Positions 12,489 to 26,236 of a DNA stretch of 64,000 bases are shown in pieces (positions within the stretch are counted from its first letter, which is position 1; every line of letters begins with the position of its first letter). Both the position numbers and the translations under genes were made by a program. Source of the stretch: Wenzhouxiangella sp. GTDB lineage: Bacteria > Pseudomonadota > Gammaproteobacteria > Xanthomonadales > Wenzhouxiangellaceae. The stretch covers positions 1 to 64,000 of the forward strand of contig SLKT01000099.1 in assembly GCA_007134485.1 (NCBI GenBank), written 5' to 3'. The notes below the pieces were generated by a model. It did not search any database, was not told the origin of the DNA, and saw nothing but the letters and a program-made list of their open reading frames with translations.

Positions 12489-12698
12489 CTATTCATGCCA
12501 CTCAATGACACCATTACTCTTGAGATTGTCCAGTCCCGACAGCTCCTTGAGTTTTTCCAGGTCCTTGTTCAGCATGGCCTGGATTTCCTCATCGTTGAGC
12601 CCGGCGGTCTTCATGGTGCCTTCCGGATCACGCTGGTAGCTTTCAGCCAATTGAGGGTCGCTGCCGAGGTTCTTGAGTAGTTGCGCCAGAGATGACAT
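12489..12698 (-). CDS. SonA-like split-borosin precursor peptide (69 aa)
   Basis: MSSLAQLLKNLGSDPQLAESYQRDPEGTMKTAGLNDEEIQAMLNKDLEKLKELSGLDNLKSNGVIEWHE. The leader has the borosin-binding-domain pattern (x2LGxDxQLxExYxxDPExxMxxxGLxxEEIxAxLxxDxEKLKxLSG) and a short C-terminal tail as putative core. RBS AGGGGAG about 8 nt upstream of the ATG at 12698; the tracked ORF is N-terminally overextended. Confidence 0.85.
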   Translation of the reverse strand: MSSLAQLLKNLGSDPQLAESYQRDPEGTMKTAGLNDEEIQAMLNKDLEKLKELSGLDNLKSNGVIEWHE

Positions 12699-12761
12699 GA
12701 AATTCTCCCCTAATCTGGATTGTGGCCTGTTTTCCCATCTGCATTGTACTGAAAAGGAATC

Positions 12762-12777: not shown

Positions 12778-12951
12778 TACCTGAACCCGCCTTGTTTACC
12801 CACCTGCATACTGCGGCGCCGCCAGAGCACACAGTTCAAAGCTCTGCGGACCTGGCCACGCGGAAGCCGATTCCGGGGCCGCGAGTGCCGCGAGGGAGCC
12901 AGATGCGTGCGGCCGAACGCAGCCTGAAGCCAGCAATAGGCCTTGAGTTGA

Positions 12952-17852: not shown

Positions 17853-18458
17853 TCAACCGGCGACATCATCTTCAAAGTCGGCCAGCTCAACCCGGAGCCA
17901 GGCACGGGCTCGGCGCAGATCGCGCACGATGGTGCGGCTGGAGACGCCGAGCATTTCGCCGATCTCCTCCACGGTATATCCGGCATACAACTGGGCGGCG
18001 GCGGCTTCGGCCATCCGCTGGTCCTGGTTCGACAATGACACGAGCCCCTTTTCGATCGCGATGATGCGGTCAATGTCGGCTCCGTCCAGACCGTAGTCGC
18101 TCTCGTTGTAGGTCTCTCGAACCTGGTCGCCGCCCCGCTTCATCCTTGATTGCTTGCGTGCGTAATCCAGGATGAGCTGGCGCATTGCGCAGGCCGCAAG
18201 CCGCTGGAAGTGGAGACGACTTTCGACGGGGCTCCCCATGCTGCCGCGCAGCTTGAGAAAGGCTTCATGAACCAGCGCCGTGGTCTGCAGGGTCGGATTG
18301 CCGCCCATTCTGCGGCGCTGATCACGGGCGATATGGCGCATGTCTTCGTACACCAGCGGCATCAGGCGGTCGAACAGCTCTGGAGTCGACTGGATCTCTT
18401 CCAACAGGCGCGTGACTTCCGATGGCGCCACTTCTTTGTAGGGATTTCTATCTACCAC
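17853..18458 (-). CDS. ECF-type RNA polymerase sigma factor
   Basis: EVTRLLEEIQSTPELFDRLMPLVYEDMRHIARDQRRRMGGNPTLQTTALVHEAFLKLRG... and a C-terminal sigma4 HTH YTVEEIGEMLGVSSRTIVRDLRRARAWLR. GTG start at 18458 overlaps the kinase stop. Confidence 0.8.
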   Translation of the reverse strand: MVDRNPYKEVAPSEVTRLLEEIQSTPELFDRLMPLVYEDMRHIARDQRRRMGGNPTLQTTALVHEAFLKLRGSMGSPVESRLHFQRLAACAMRQLILDYARKQSRMKRGGDQVRETYNESDYGLDGADIDRIIAIEKGLVSLSNQDQRMAEAAAAQLYAGYTVEEIGEMLGVSSRTIVRDLRRARAWLRVELADFEDDVAG

Positions 18459-21277
18459 TGGCCCTGAGGTTCCTGCGGCGCAACCGGGTCTCGCGCCCAT
18501 CGTTTCTGCTCGATATCGTGACCGGCGCCGGGATCGGTCTCGTGCCATGCAGCGTAGAGTCCGTGCAGCTCCAACGCAATGTCCAGGGTGCGATCATGGT
18601 CCTCGCCCAGCTCCTCCCGATAGATTTCATAGGCCTCAAGCATCGGCGTCTCAGCTTCACCATATCGTCCTTGCGCCGCCAGGGCCAGGCCCAGACGGGC
18701 ATGGAACACGCCCTGGTGCCAATGGCCGGATGACAGAACGCGCCGGCCGCGCTCCACGGCTTCGGCAGCCAATTCCTCAGCTTGGCGGTAGCGACCCAGC
18801 GACTGAACCAGCGAACTGGAGTTGTTGATAAAGATCAGTGTACGGTGATGATCATTGCCATACAGGCGCCGGGCACTGTTCATCGCCTCCAGTGAATACG
18901 GCATGGCCTGTTCCGGCCGTTCCATCGCATTGAGCAAAAACCCCATGTTATTGACCGAGACCATGGTCTGGGGATGCTCGTTACCGAGCGCTGTGCGTCG
19001 GCCTTCAAGCGCTTCACGGTAATAAGGCAGGGCTTGGTCCAGATGACCCTTTTGCTGCAGCAGCCAACCCATGTTGCTGATCGAACTCAAGGTTTCCGGA
19101 TGCCGGTCTCCCAATGTCTGACGACGAATGTCCAGGACTTCCCGGTAATACGGTTTGGCTTCGTCGAGGTGTCCCTGACTACTCAGAAAAGACCCCATGT
19201 TGCTCAGCGATGCCAGGGTTTGCTCATGCGTGGCGCCCAGGGCCACTCGACTCCTTTCCAGTGTGTCGGAAAACAGCTGACCGGCCCGTTCCAGATCGCC
19301 GCTGTTGAAGTAGTGGGTACCCAGGCTGCCGGTTACACGAAGGGTCTTCAAATGATCTTCGCCCAGCTTCTCGCGAAAGCCGTTCATCGCTTCTTTGTAA
19401 TAGCGACGCTGAAGTTCGTAGCGCCCCATCTGCCCGTGCAGTGCGCCCATCTCGTAGACCGATTGCAGGGTGTCGGAGTCGAGATCGCCCAGCCATTGAC
19501 GACGAATTTCAAGCGCGCGCGCCTGAGGTATCTCGGTCTGTTCCCTGATGCCCAGTTCGCGCATGGTCGTGGCCGTGACCTGCAACAGCCTGGCCTGCAA
19601 CAGCGGCTGGGCGGTAAATTCCTGATCGATGGTACGCAGGGTGGGCGCAAATATATCGCGATTCATGCTGGCCAGGGCCACGTCAGTGAAATTGACCCCG
19701 CCCAGGGATTCATCCAGCACGTGCAGTTCGTGCTCGATCTGGTCATCGTCGCCAAGCAACCCATCCAGCGCAGACCGACGCTGGTCCAGAATATCCGATC
19801 GCAGCCCGGCGCCCATGGCGGTGGCATCGATTGCGGCCAGTCGTCTGGCCTGAAAATCGACCACCAATTGCAACTCGCCGGCCAGCAGTGCAGCCTGCTG
19901 CTCGGCGGATACCGCGCGCTGGGTTTCCAGTTCAGCCCGGTCACGTTGTTCGGTGGCGTGGTGGGCTTGCCACAGTGCACCGGCAACCGCCATCAACAAT
20001 AGCAGCGCACCGGCCAGCGTTGCTCCAGTAGCCACGCGATGGCGGCGAATGAATTTTGATAGCACATAGGCCCCGGTCTGCTCCCTTGCCTGGACCGGGT
20101 AGCCCCGGCGGCAATGCCGCACGTCTTCGAGCAATTGCGGCACGCCGGCATAACGCTGGTCTGGATCTTCGGCGCAGGCGCGATCAATGATGGCGACGAG
20201 GTCATTTCTGCGCTCCAGGTCAACGGGCAATTCCGGGGCAATGGTATGCCCCGGTTTGGCCTGACGAATACCGCCGCCCAGCAACCATTGCAACAGCACA
20301 CCCAATGACCAGATGTCGGACTGTGTTGAAGCAAGCTCACCATGAAGCTGTTCTGGCGCGCAAAACGCCGGGGTCATGGCAATGGCGCTGCCTTGCTGCT
20401 CAATGTGCTCGTCCTGAATCAGCCTGGCCACGCCAAAATCGACCAGCCGGACCTGGCCCGATATGGTGACTCTCACATTGGCCGGCTTGAGATCACCATG
20501 AACGATCTGGCGCTGGTGCGCGTGGGCGACTGCTTCGACCACCTGCTCGAAAAAGTTCAGGCGGGTTGCAAAATCACAGGGCTGCCGTTCGAGATACTCG
20601 TCGAGGTCGTAGCCCTCAACCCACTCCATGACCAGATAGGTCAGACCGTCACTGGTCATACCACCGTCGATCAGGCGTGCGATATTGCGATGATTCAACC
20701 GCGCCAGCAGGCGCCGCTCGATCTGGAGTCGCTCGTCCAGATTCTTCTTGCCGGAGCGGATCACCTTGATGGCGACCGTCATTTCAAAGGAATCATCGGT
20801 GCGTTCGGCCCGATACACCGAGCCCATGCCCCCATGGCCAATGGCCTCGACCACAGTCCATGCACCCAGGCACGTGCCCGGTTCCAGTACCTTCATGCTT
20901 GCCTGAGCTTGCTCGCAGACAACCTGGCCGGCGCGCCGAAACAGCTCGTACATTCCCCCGCACGTCTCATCGCTGGCATCAAGCAGGGCAGCAACCCAGG
21001 GATAGATTCTCGGAGCGCGCGCCCGAATTTGCTCAAGCTCGCGAGCACGCGTTGGATTATCGGCTTCCAGCAACTGATCGAGTAATGTATCGATCAGCCG
21101 TCGCCGGGCGGGGGTCAGTCTGCCCTTATATGGGCCATCGGGCACTGGGTCACATGCGAATGAGTGGGCTTGGTCTCGCAGTCTACTACACGCAATTGGC
21201 TGGCATTGCGGCGATGGGTGCTGGCGAACGGCGCCAAGTTCAATACCGGCTGTTGACATGATGACCGTGGCGCCCAA
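18452..21277 (-). CDS. serine/threonine protein kinase with C-terminal TPR repeats
   Basis: GHGGMGSVYRAE, VAIKVI, IVHGDLKPANV, LVDFGVARL kinase motifs; TM segment; repeated LGxxHPxTLxSxxNMGxLL TPRs. Confidence 0.88.
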   Translation of the reverse strand: MGATVIMSTAGIELGAVRQHPSPQCQPIACSRLRDQAHSFACDPVPDGPYKGRLTPARRRLIDTLLDQLLEADNPTRARELEQIRARAPRIYPWVAALLDASDETCGGMYELFRRAGQVVCEQAQASMKVLEPGTCLGAWTVVEAIGHGGMGSVYRAERTDDSFEMTVAIKVIRSGKKNLDERLQIERRLLARLNHRNIARLIDGGMTSDGLTYLVMEWVEGYDLDEYLERQPCDFATRLNFFEQVVEAVAHAHQRQIVHGDLKPANVRVTISGQVRLVDFGVARLIQDEHIEQQGSAIAMTPAFCAPEQLHGELASTQSDIWSLGVLLQWLLGGGIRQAKPGHTIAPELPVDLERRNDLVAIIDRACAEDPDQRYAGVPQLLEDVRHCRRGYPVQAREQTGAYVLSKFIRRHRVATGATLAGALLLLMAVAGALWQAHHATEQRDRAELETQRAVSAEQQAALLAGELQLVVDFQARRLAAIDATAMGAGLRSDILDQRRSALDGLLGDDDQIEHELHVLDESLGGVNFTDVALASMNRDIFAPTLRTIDQEFTAQPLLQARLLQVTATTMRELGIREQTEIPQARALEIRRQWLGDLDSDTLQSVYEMGALHGQMGRYELQRRYYKEAMNGFREKLGEDHLKTLRVTGSLGTHYFNSGDLERAGQLFSDTLERSRVALGATHEQTLASLSNMGSFLSSQGHLDEAKPYYREVLDIRRQTLGDRHPETLSSISNMGWLLQQKGHLDQALPYYREALEGRRTALGNEHPQTMVSVNNMGFLLNAMERPEQAMPYSLEAMNSARRLYGNDHHRTLIFINNSSSLVQSLGRYRQAEELAAEAVERGRRVLSSGHWHQGVFHARLGLALAAQGRYGEAETPMLEAYEIYREELGEDHDRTLDIALELHGLYAAWHETDPGAGHDIEQKRWARDPVAPQEPQGQW

Positions 21278-21373: not shown

Positions 21374-22972
21374 ATGAATCACACAGTTTTGTTCTTTCCG
21401 CTGCGTGCTGTCCGTTTCCCTGCGGCTTCCTTTTTCTGCCCACTCCGAATGCTTATCGGCGTGGGGCTTTTCTGTTCCGTCCTGGCCGCGACGGGCCTGG
21501 CCCGGGCGGATGACGGCAGCGCTTTCATCACGACCTGGGAGATCACCGAGGCCGGCCAGGAGATCATGATCCCGACCGCCCCGGATACCGACTATGACTT
21601 CACCATCGACTGGGGCGACGGCACGGTCGAGGAGATTTCGGGCACCGACCCGGATCCGACGCATGCTTACGCCGAGCCGGGGGCCTACGAAGTTGCCATC
21701 ACCGGGCAATTCCGGCGCATCCATTTCGATCTCTCGAGAATGGACTTCCAGAGACCTGCAAGGGGAGACATTCACCTCGGGGAGAATGCGCAATAGCTGG
21801 TGGCAGTGGAGCAATGGGGCGCGATCGAGTGGACGAGCATGGAAGGCGCGTTCGCCGGCGCAGCCAATCTGACGCTCAATGCCACTGATGCGCCGGATCT
21901 GTCTGGCGTGCGCTCCCTTAACAGGATGTTTGCGCTGGGCCATTCCTTCAATGGCGATATCGGTCACTGGGATGTCTCCGGCGTCGAGGACATGAGCCAA
22001 ATGTTCGAAGAGACCCGCCAGTTTGATCAGGACATCGGCGGATGGGATGTTTCCAGCGTGAGAGACATGAGCGGGATGTTCACCCTTAATTTCGGGCGAG
22101 AATACGCCTTCAACCAGGATATCGGCGATTGGGATGTCTCCAGCGTGATCGACATGAGCGGGATGTTCCAGCGCGCGAACAACTTCGACCAGGACATCGG
22201 TGGCTGGGATGTCTCCAGCGTCGAGGACATGAGTTATATGTTCGGAGAGGCCAGTTCCTTCAACCAGGATATCGGCGACTGGGACCTGTCGGCGGCCACC
22301 ACCATCCGCGGCATGCTCAGCCGGGCCGAAAACTTCAACCAGGATGTCAGTGGCTGGGACATCTCCAGCGTTCGCGATGTCAGGAGCCTGTTCGGCGGCG
22401 CTGAATCCTTCAACCAGGGCATCAGCGACTGGGACCTGTCCAGCGTGGAAAACATGGAAGGCATGTTCGCCGGCGCCAGCGACTTCAACCAGGACATCAG
22501 CGGCTGGGACGTTTCCGGCTTGACCGACGCGCGCTCCATGTTCAAGGACGCCACCGCCTTCAACCAGGACCTGGACGACTGGGACGTTTCCGCGGTGACC
22601 AACATGAACGGCATGTTCTGGGGCGCGACGGCGTTTGACGGCGCGATCGAGCACTGGGAAGTTTCGAACGTCACCAACATGGCACGGATGTTCTGGAAGG
22701 CTGAATCCTTCAACCGCAACATCGGCGATTGGGATGTATCCGGCGTGAACAACACCTGGCTGATGTTTGCCGAAACCGAATCCTTCAACCAGGACATCAG
22801 CGGCTGGGATGTCTCGAATGTAGTCAATGCCCGCGAGATGTTTCGCGATGCCCGCGCATTCAACCAGGACCTGAGCGCCTGGGCATTCCCCGAGGAAGCC
22901 AATACCGACGACATGTTCGAGGGCGCCGAGGCATTCGAAGATGCAAATGCGCCTGATTCGTCAAGGCTCTGA
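21374..22972 (+). pseudogene. BspA/DUF285-repeat secreted protein interrupted by one in-frame TAG (21794-21796)
   Basis: 5' part has a signal peptide and a PKD-like DWGDGTVEEISGT...HAYAEPGAYEVAITG segment; GENAQ-TAG-LVAVEQWGAIEWTSMEGAFAGA continues in the same frame into 13 DUF285-type repeats. Confidence 0.75.
21947..22933 (+). repeat. 13 tandem 25-aa (about 75 bp) DUF285/BspA-type repeats
   Basis: Repeating FNQDIGxWDVSSVxDMSxMFxxAxx; one unit is 29 aa, and total length fits 13 x 25 + 4 residues. Confidence 0.85.
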
Positions 22973-23195
22973 ATATTAACCCGGCAGGTATCTAGATCGC
23001 ATTCAGCCGTGTCATCGGCGAAATAATCGTACACCTGGCACATATTGGGATGGACCCGCGACGACAGCGCGGGCGATGCCGACATCCAAATCCCCGAGCA
23101 ACAAGGGAAACGACCAACACTTGAATGGCAAGTGGCAATGAATGGGTCACTCTTCAGGCGGTGGTCGTAACAGGGATGTCAATGTTATTCTTTTT

Positions 23196-23227
23196 GCTCC
23201 TGCCTCCGAACCCAGCCCGGCAGGAGC
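23196..23227 (+). promoter_or_regulatory. candidate SD-sequestering hairpin upstream of the sigma factor
   Basis: GCTCCTGCC tccgaacccagccc GGCAGGAGC: perfect 9-bp stem whose 3' arm contains AGGAG, 11 nt before ATG 23238. Confidence 0.45.
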
Positions 23228-23237
23228 GGAAAATGTC

Positions 23238-23786
23238 ATGCCTGGTGAGCTAACCCTGCTGCTTGAAGCGGCCAACAAAGGGGATCAACCCGCCCTGAAC
23301 CGGCTGGTCGCGCTGCTGTACGTCGATCTTCGCAAATTGGCCCATCGCTGTCGCAAAGGCGAGATCCAGGATCTCGACACCACCAGCCTTGTCCACGAAT
23401 GCTATCTGCGTTTTCTCAAGAGCGGACAGCTCGAGGTTCGTGATCGCTCGCATTTTTTCAACCTGGCCGCGCGGGTCATGCGGCAGTTGCTGGTCGATTA
23501 TGCGCGCGAGCGGCTGGCCCGGAAACGCGGTGGTGGAGTGCCTCATGTCGAATTGCGCGACTCGGATGCCGCCGAACAGGCCGAGGCCGAGCACTGCCTG
23601 GATGTCGATCAGGCCCTGGAACGCCTGGCTGAAATCCGACCAATGCAGGCCAGCGTGGTCGAGTGCAGGTTCTTTGCCGGGCTGACCGAGGAGGAAACCG
23701 CCGAGGCGATGGATCGCTCCTTGCGTAGCGTACAGCGTGACTGGCAGGCGGCGCGGGTCTGGCTGGCCGAACACCTGAAACAATGA
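23238..23786 (+). CDS. ECF-type RNA polymerase sigma factor
   Basis: MPGELTLLLEAANKGDQPALNRLVALLYVDLRKLAHRCRKGEIQDLDTTSLVHECYLRFL...GLTEEETAEAMDRSLRSVQRDWQAARVWL. Start chosen after an AGGAG; an upstream start at 23142 is possible. Confidence 0.8.
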   Translation: MPGELTLLLEAANKGDQPALNRLVALLYVDLRKLAHRCRKGEIQDLDTTSLVHECYLRFLKSGQLEVRDRSHFFNLAARVMRQLLVDYARERLARKRGGGVPHVELRDSDAAEQAEAEHCLDVDQALERLAEIRPMQASVVECRFFAGLTEEETAEAMDRSLRSVQRDWQAARVWLAEHLKQ

Positions 23787-26236
23787 GCGACGATCCACTA
23801 CGTCCCGGTCGAATGCTCGAAGGCCCCCTGTTCCGGGGCTTTCTCAAACGGCTGGCCGAGATCCGCGAGCCCGAGCCAAACGATCGGATTGGCGCCTGGC
23901 GGATCGTTCGCGAGCTTGGCCGCGGCGGCAGCGGAGTGGTATTCCTGGCCGAGCGAGCCGATGGCGCCTTCAGTCAGCAAGTGGCGTTGAAATGGCCGCG
24001 TGGCGACCGGCCGGTGCCCGGCGGACGCGAGGCGCTGGCCCGCGAGCGCGAGCTGCTGGCCGGCCTGGATCATCCCAACATCGCGCGTCTGATTGACGGC
24101 GGCCAGACCGAAGATGGCATGTTGTGGTTTGCCATGGATCATGTGCCAGGACAGACCATCGACCGGCATGCCAAGGGCCTTGAGCTACGCCAACGCCTGG
24201 AGCTGATCACCACCCTGTGTCAGGCGGTTCAGCACGCCCATCGCCGTGGCCTGATCCATGGCGATATCAAGCCATCCAATGTACTGGTCGATGGCCGCGG
24301 CCAACCGCGGTTGCTCGACTTCGGAATTTCGCGTTTCACAGCGGGAGCGATCGGCTCGAGCTACGGACTCACCCCCGACTACGCCAGCCCCGAACAACGC
24401 GATGGCGGGCCACTTACCACGGCCTCCGACCTCTGGCAATTGGGTCGCCTGCTCAATGAACTGATCGGCGATGCGCCAGTACCGGTCGACTTGCGCTCCA
24501 TTATCGACTGCGCCACCGCCGAAGAACCGGAAGACCGCTATGCCTCGGCCACCGCCCTGGCGTCCGATCTGCACGCCTGGCTCGGGCACTACCCGGTGCG
24601 AGCCCATCCGGGGCGCTTGGGTTATCGGCTGGCGCGCTGGGCACAGCGCAATACCGCCGTGGCCGTCGTCACTGGCCTGGCGCTGATCATTGTTGCCGGT
24701 GGAGGCGCCTGGATGGGCTGGCAGGTTACGGCCGAGCGTGATCTGGCTCAAGCCGAGGCCGCGCGCGCCGAGGCCGCGCTGTCTGATGCCGAAATCGCCC
24801 TGGCGCGTGCCACTGCCCTGCATGATTTTCTGATCAACCTGTTTCGCGCGACTCAGCCCCAGGACGAATTGCCGACCACCGCCGAGATCCTGGAGCTCGG
24901 GACCCAACAGGCGCTGGATTCCGATTCCGCTCCGGCAGTAGAACGATTCGGCATGCTGGTTGCACTGGGTCAGGTCTATCAGTCGCAGAACCTCTACGAG
25001 CAAGCCTGGCCCCTGGTCGATGCCGCCATGGAGATCCTGCCTGAAACTCCGGCGCTGGGCCCGATCGACCGGGCACGCGTATTGCAACTGAAGTCACGCC
25101 TGACGATCGCCGACGGGGGCAGCCTGGATGATGCCGAAGCCCTGCTCATCGAGGCCGAGTCGTGGCTTATTGATGCGGACAACGGCCACGATCTGTTGGC
25201 GCAAAACAGGATTCAGCGAACCTGGATCGAACGCCATCGTGGCAACCACGAACAGGCATTGAGCCTGGTTGAACCGCTCTATGAAGACCTGTACCGGACC
25301 GGCCTCCTGAGCGACCTGACCGAAGCATCCTTGCTCGATGCCCTGAGCGGGCTGCAAGCCGCCGCCGGTAATCTGGACCAGGCGGCAAACCTGAGGACCG
25401 AGGCCATCGAGGCCTACCGGCAGGCTACCGGAGAAACAGGCCAGGGGCACGTGGTGGCGCTGGCCAACAGTGTTGGTCTCGAACTGGCCCTGGGACGTTT
25501 GGAAGAGGCCAAGCGCCGCGCCCGTCGCGCCATCGAGCTATACGATCGGATTTATCCTGACCCGGTCGATTATCGCGCGGTCTCACGCCGCACACTGGCG
25601 CGCATCCTGCTGACCACCGGCCGGATCGAGAAGGCTTTCGAGACACTACGGCGCGCCAACGACGAACATGCCGAAGCCCTGAACTCGACGCTCGAGCAGT
25701 GGCCGCTGTATTTCAGTCAGCGCGGCAGCTTCAAGGCGCGTCTGGGTCGCATGGACGCCGCGGTCGAAGACCTGGCCCGGGCTCACGCCCTGGCCGAGGA
25801 GCAGGGCGACTGGGATCCGCGCGTGATTGCCTCGCTGGAGATGCTGCATGCCTGGACCCGCTGTCTGGCCGGCAATGGCCGGGGCGGCGAGCAACTGCTC
25901 GAAGACATGCGCCATGCCGAAACCTTGCAGGGCCAACCACGCAACCGGGCCCAGTTGCACGAAGCCAGGGCGGCCTGCCACCAGGCCAATCAACGTCCGC
26001 AGTCCGCACTCGAGGAGATCGAGGCAGCATTGGCCAGCCATGACGTGGACGGCGACGTGCTGGGGTCGCTGGGCCGTCGTTTGATCCAGGCCAAGGCCTT
26101 AAGCGATCTCGACCGCGTCGATGAAGCCCGTGCGGTATTGCACGAGGCCGACCGGCGATTCGAGTCGCTGGGACTCGACGACCACCCGCGGCGTGCGGCC
26201 GTGCGCGAGGCTCTCCAGCAATTTCCTGGCGGTTGA
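23783..26236 (+). CDS. serine/threonine protein kinase with C-terminal TPR-like repeats
   Basis: ELGRGGSGVVFLAERADG, VALKWPRG, LIHGDIKPSNVLVDGRGQPRLLDFGISRF; TM helix; helical repeats; ATGA overlap with the sigma gene. Confidence 0.87.
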   Translation: MSDDPLRPGRMLEGPLFRGFLKRLAEIREPEPNDRIGAWRIVRELGRGGSGVVFLAERADGAFSQQVALKWPRGDRPVPGGREALARERELLAGLDHPNIARLIDGGQTEDGMLWFAMDHVPGQTIDRHAKGLELRQRLELITTLCQAVQHAHRRGLIHGDIKPSNVLVDGRGQPRLLDFGISRFTAGAIGSSYGLTPDYASPEQRDGGPLTTASDLWQLGRLLNELIGDAPVPVDLRSIIDCATAEEPEDRYASATALASDLHAWLGHYPVRAHPGRLGYRLARWAQRNTAVAVVTGLALIIVAGGGAWMGWQVTAERDLAQAEAARAEAALSDAEIALARATALHDFLINLFRATQPQDELPTTAEILELGTQQALDSDSAPAVERFGMLVALGQVYQSQNLYEQAWPLVDAAMEILPETPALGPIDRARVLQLKSRLTIADGGSLDDAEALLIEAESWLIDADNGHDLLAQNRIQRTWIERHRGNHEQALSLVEPLYEDLYRTGLLSDLTEASLLDALSGLQAAAGNLDQAANLRTEAIEAYRQATGETGQGHVVALANSVGLELALGRLEEAKRRARRAIELYDRIYPDPVDYRAVSRRTLARILLTTGRIEKAFETLRRANDEHAEALNSTLEQWPLYFSQRGSFKARLGRMDAAVEDLARAHALAEEQGDWDPRVIASLEMLHAWTRCLAGNGRGGEQLLEDMRHAETLQGQPRNRAQLHEARAACHQANQRPQSALEEIEAALASHDVDGDVLGSLGRRLIQAKALSDLDRVDEARAVLHEADRRFESLGLDDHPRRAAVREALQQFPGG

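Follow-up and report, generated by a model that had tools for sequence, protein, structure and literature searches.

The locus considered here raises two linked questions: what kind of peptide is encoded by a short minus-strand frame in Wenzhouxiangella sp., and what such a peptide might do beside the membrane-bound diguanylate cyclase gene that follows it. The window, meaning the whole stretch of 64,000 nucleotides that was analysed, holds the frame at 12489-12698, whose product is MSSLAQLLKNLGSDPQLAESYQRDPEGTMKTAGLNDEEIQAMLNKDLEKLKELSGLDNLKSNGVIEWHE. This product is a further member of a known borosin family and is ordinary as such; the features on which the argument draws, in the window and in related loci, are collected in Table 1.

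Table 1. Positions of the borosin genes and their parts in the window, and of fused or exchanged sensor genes in related loci (coordinates preceded by an L number refer to that locus).
Feature	Coordinates	Strand	Basis or remark
Split-borosin precursor	12489..12698	(-)	69 aa + stop; SonA match, relatives
Leader, residues 1-55, SonA-like borosin-binding domain	12534..12698	(-)	SonA alignment, conservation; helix-5 boundary approximate
C-terminal segment, residues 61-69 (SNGVIEWHE), presumed core	12492..12518	(-)	SonA register, conservation
Shine-Dalgarno AGGGGAG	12705..12711	(-)	six bases ahead of ATG 12698
Membrane TPR-GGDEF diguanylate cyclase, 586 aa	10699..12459	(-)	between precursor and methyltransferase
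SonM-like peptide backbone alpha-N-methyltransferase, 257 aa	9920..10693	(-)	SonM match, active-site residues
TPR-GGDEF-methyltransferase fusion	L139 5103-7745	(-)	
TPR-GGDEF-methyltransferase fusion	L140 3167-5704	(+)	
TPR-GGDEF-methyltransferase fusion	L141 5054-7600	(-)	
TPR-GGDEF-methyltransferase fusion	L142 3354-5924	(+)	
TPR-GGDEF-methyltransferase fusion	L143 3276-5864	(+)	
TPR-hybrid-histidine-kinase adjoining borosin genes	L103 6871-10128		
TPR-hybrid-histidine-kinase adjoining borosin genes	L237 6025-8916		
TPR-histidine-kinase adjoining borosin genes	L238 5889-7868		
TPR-hybrid-histidine-kinase, locus also with TPR-GGDEF	L101 6477-9446		

Precursor identity and translation start

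Residues 1-65 of the precursor align without gaps to SonA in the PDB (E 2.7e-12 for the best chain), the SonM/SonA pair of Shewanella oneidensis being a type IV split borosin (PDB 7LTC and others; PMC8429565) with a likewise separate methyltransferase of about 260 aa. SonA and the window precursor share a length of about 70 aa, a borosin-binding leader and an ungapped register to Ile65. The methyltransferase of the same operon matches SonM at E 8.7e-68 and members of the fungal OphMA family with E-values of about 4e-42 to 3e-38, and it keeps all eight SonM residues described as important (Y58, R67, Y71, Y93, F99, E146, W166, Q167; PMC8429565), so that the two enzymes have the same active-site residues. 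R67, whose exchange for alanine inactivates SonM, corresponds to R65 of the window enzyme. The fused fungal borosin OphMA (omphalotin) has a homologous methyltransferase domain (E about 3e-38) and carries its core on the enzyme itself, whereas the window core lies on a separate gene. The operon thus combines the sequence features that define the type IV split class, namely a short, separate precursor with a borosin-binding-domain leader and a C-terminal core, a separately encoded SonM-homologous alpha-N-methyltransferase with its active-site residues, and the placement of both genes on the same strand with one gene between them.

Judged from these comparisons, the operon is very probably that of a type IV split borosin, and the SonA match together with a SonM-like methyltransferase in the same operon bears out the borosin identity proposed in the first-pass annotation. 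Two points count against this assignment: a glycine, G63, stands at the position of SonA L63 although most known core residues are hydrophobic, and no protease or exporter that could account for the release of a mature peptide is conserved in the loci. That the frame instead encodes a LigA-like dioxygenase subunit or an NHLP/Nif11-type RiPP precursor is very improbable, since the LigA match (24.0 bits) lies under the Pfam gathering cut-off of 25.3 and the NHLP-clan matches (21.2 and 14.6 bits) under the NCBIfam curated cut-offs of 40 and 34, the operon has no gene for a dioxygenase or for another RiPP enzyme, and the LigA label follows from the borosin relationship itself, SonA being named a LigA-domain protein in the PDB.

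The automatic frame is longer, running to 116 aa from TTG 12839. Anti-Shine-Dalgarno pairing at ATG 12698 reaches -8.3 kcal/mol, all other in-frame starts giving -4.8 or weaker. The AGGGGAG motif, which had been called strong, is indeed present and is the best among the in-frame starts, but random window positions place -8.3 kcal/mol between the 1st and the 5th percentile, so that the motif alone is no more than moderately strong evidence. Comparison is decisive: among 26 relatives, conservation starts at M1, except for R/G/E letters encoded by the Shine-Dalgarno sequence itself, and six homologues (L039, L144, L041, L040, L047, L055) have an in-frame stop 1-6 codons upstream. The start at ATG 12698 follows from these two observations, and the extension to TTG 12839 is, on such sequence comparison, an artefact, as the first-pass annotation had maintained in calling the automatic frame overextended and in asking whether leader conservation begins at M1. 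Nor is 12489-12698 a chance open reading frame, given the SonA match, a paralogous operon in the same genome and homologues in the family.

Upstream of the precursor, two 17-base direct copies that share 88% identity and lie 65 bases from each other (window 12728-12744 and 12793-12809) are a possible operator. A search for a cyclic-di-GMP riboswitch or other Rfam element upstream of the precursor gave a single match far below threshold, and sigma-70 promoters and intrinsic terminators were no commoner than in shuffled sequence.

Operon layout and the conserved tail

The three genes follow one another in the order precursor, TPR-GGDEF, methyltransferase, and are separated by 29 and 5 bases. Contig C44 of this genome carries another complete operon in that order, its precursor being 34-36%, its TPR-GGDEF 36% and its methyltransferase 57% identical to those of the window; the TonB-dependent receptor upstream of it is not general to the loci. 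SonM-type loci differ in having the order methyltransferase, precursor, TPR-GGDEF, and the enzymes belong to different clades as well: the window methyltransferase is one of 28 members of a clade (support 100/98) comprising the precursor/TPR-GGDEF/methyltransferase operons and the fusions, and SonM lies outside it, near the enzymes of L152 and L103.

Within the order, 144 of 299 genomes have the methyltransferase gene, but a sample from across the class gave it in only 10 of 369 genomes; precursor homologues occur in 20 of the 43 genomes of the family. A decayed precursor (L037 5206-5478, minus strand), 65% identical to the window leader and with its core lost, has neither a methyltransferase nor a sensor gene nearby. 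One genome (G030) carries the same borosin locus on two contigs (L043 and L044), which is either a real duplication or an assembly artefact.

By homology, and with high confidence, the leader is expected to fold as a borosin-binding domain that docks on the methyltransferase, which would use SAM for backbone-amide methylation of the C-terminal segment. SonM methylates SonA at L63 and I65 (PMC8429565), and in the shared register I65 corresponds to the methylated Ile65 and G63 to L63; position 65 is I or V in all 26 relatives. The most likely methylation site in the otherwise polar window core would accordingly be I65 in register terms, with G63 perhaps a further one.

The core had been described as unusual and the tail expected to vary, a tail as conserved as the leader being named as an outcome that would speak against the proposal. 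Among the 26 relatives, the information content of residues 61-69 is 2.69 bits per column, as high as that of the leader (2.73) and above that of the linker (2.29), so the expectation of a variable tail fails. Nor does the core stand apart, since it fits the family pattern T/S-N-S/G-x-I/V-x-A-Y/H-D/E; V64 and W67, both singled out in the first-pass annotation, are the residues that depart from the usual T and A, W67 being a mere oddity. The borosin assignment survives the conserved tail because neither the methyltransferase nor the borosin-binding leader can be mistaken for anything else. Such conservation would point to a single shared molecular target rather than to a diversifying product, and it predicts which residues matter.

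The TPR-GGDEF neighbour and its variants

The protein encoded between precursor and methyltransferase combines a signal peptide with a TPR superhelix, one transmembrane helix (about 391-418) and a GGDEF domain (E 1.9e-36) whose GGEEF motif is intact, as expected of a diguanylate cyclase; hydrophobicity, from which this topology is read, would place the TPR part in the periplasm. By fold, the TPR part matches Rap pheromone receptors, a match that is generic for TPR folds. The TPR-GGDEF diguanylate cyclase RcbB of Vibrio vulnificus (PMC12282931) is alike in that a TPR domain controls the cyclase; it differs in being predicted cytoplasmic and in having another TPR protein as its partner, and that report mentions no methyltransferase.

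Of 75 methyltransferase loci, 58 have a TPR-GGDEF gene on the same strand and no more than 2.5 kb away. The other 17 comprise loci lying at the end of a contig (L024, L059, L146, L176), L169, in which the neighbouring protein fell short of the full-length criterion, the clade whose cores are short and hydrophobic, and distant members of the class. In another order, 16 of 20 loci have a full-length TPR-GGDEF gene, often directly after the precursor; among these loci is one whose SonM has 98% identity to the solved protein, and close SonM relatives share the adjoining gene with the window operon. Since a genome holds only about two such genes (73 TPR-GGDEF matches in 43 genomes), chance falls far short of explaining the association. 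Distance matrices of the methyltransferase and the TPR-GGDEF protein are correlated (Mantel r 0.61, a value reached in none of 5000 permutations), which is what joint inheritance of the two genes would produce. TPR-GGDEF genes nevertheless also occur away from methyltransferase genes, for example a third one in the same genome on contig C127, which counts against an exclusive coupling of sensor and borosin and shows the sensor family to be broader than its borosin use.

In five genomes, TPR, transmembrane helix, GGDEF and methyltransferase are joined in a single uninterrupted frame of 846-881 aa that directly follows the borosin precursor. Four loci have a TPR-histidine-kinase in place of, or beside, the TPR-GGDEF protein, and L229 has TPR-only proteins at its borosin locus. 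Instead of TPR-GGDEF, the hydrophobic-core clade encodes a 7TMR-DISM-GGDEF protein about 1.5 kb away. Common to the loci is a sensor in the membrane that is joined to a signalling output. Besides precursor, methyltransferase and sensor, no conserved protease or exporter was found in the loci, and the remaining shared frames look like shadow frames of the borosin and sensor genes or like syntenic neighbours.

The hydrophobic-core clade (L050, L051, L056, L058-L061) is a borosin clade of its own within the same bacterial family, and its cores end in FIIF, FIII, LIIL and similar; a 518-aa protein with a putative flavoprotein-like N-terminus is encoded nearby.

Possible roles of the presumably methylated peptide

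Recurrent association with a sensor, fusions and exchange of outputs make bacterial borosins look coupled to signal transduction, a role for the sensor in this coupling being suggested by the same gene arrangements. For the window operon, coupling of the borosin peptide to the TPR-GGDEF diguanylate cyclase is the slightly favoured reading: the membrane protein would most likely tie the peptide to cyclic-di-GMP signalling, the peptide then acting together with the TPR sensor, be it as a ligand after export or as a regulator within the cytoplasm. It may further be proposed, tentatively and at somewhat less than an even chance, that type IV borosins in general are not classical secreted antibiotics and that their backbone-methylated peptide is part of a signalling module, in which it would act on, or be read by, a dedicated membrane TPR sensor, and of which the output would be cyclic-di-GMP or histidine-kinase signalling, methyltransferase and cyclase being fused in some lineages. 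According to the 2021 paper in which type IV split borosins were discovered, none of their pathways had been linked to an end product (PMC8429565). With a conserved membrane sensor next to the methyltransferase, or fused to it, in several orders, a role of these peptides in cyclic-di-GMP or two-component signalling becomes concrete enough to test.

Such an association is at least partly on record already, the GGDEF domain being named in a figure legend on borosin architectures in a 2024 paper (PMC11395268), where, as in the window, it belongs to a gene cluster or protein architecture; the legend itself gives no sequence, taxon or function by which it could be matched to the window operon or the fusions. 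Beyond this one legend, a literature search that covered part of the key borosin papers found no link between borosins and cyclic-di-GMP signalling.

How the peptide would reach the sensor can be pictured in more than one way. A somewhat unlikely version has the methylated peptide leave the cytoplasm as a secreted signal, to be sensed by the periplasmic TPR part and so to switch the diguanylate cyclase or histidine kinase. The predicted topology, the resemblance to Rap receptors, the retention of the sensor part while the output swaps between GGDEF and histidine kinase, and a tail conserved as for the ligand of a fixed receptor all agree with it; the loci, however, encode neither exporter nor protease, fold matches among TPR superhelices are generic, and binding of the peptide to the TPR part is putative.

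Doubtful to a similar degree is the reading that the peptide is an ordinary secreted natural product and that the TPR-GGDEF protein merely regulates its production or is a neighbour with no function in the pathway. Most RiPP operons do make products, cluster regulators are common, and TPR-GGDEF genes do occur elsewhere; yet an association far above chance in several orders, fusions in five genomes, a tail conserved instead of diversified and loci devoid of a transporter speak against it.

Less probable still, precursor and methyltransferase may stay inside the cell and act directly on the diguanylate cyclase, the methylated precursor being the regulator and no product being released. The position of the fused methyltransferase directly behind GGDEF, on the cytoplasmic side, would suit this arrangement, as would the want of exporter and protease and the conservation of a polar tail, but fusions are a minority, and the conserved periplasmic TPR sensor and the exchange of output domains would be left unexplained.

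Elsewhere in the window, judging by their translations, two pairs of genes resemble an ECF-type sigma factor with a serine/threonine kinase carrying TPR, one at 17853-18548 and 18452-21277 on the minus strand and the other at 23142-23786 and 23783-26236 on the plus strand. Between them, the translation of 21800-22972 (plus strand) is that of a WDVSSV-type repeat protein, BspA/DUF285-like in appearance, with long antisense open frames over it.
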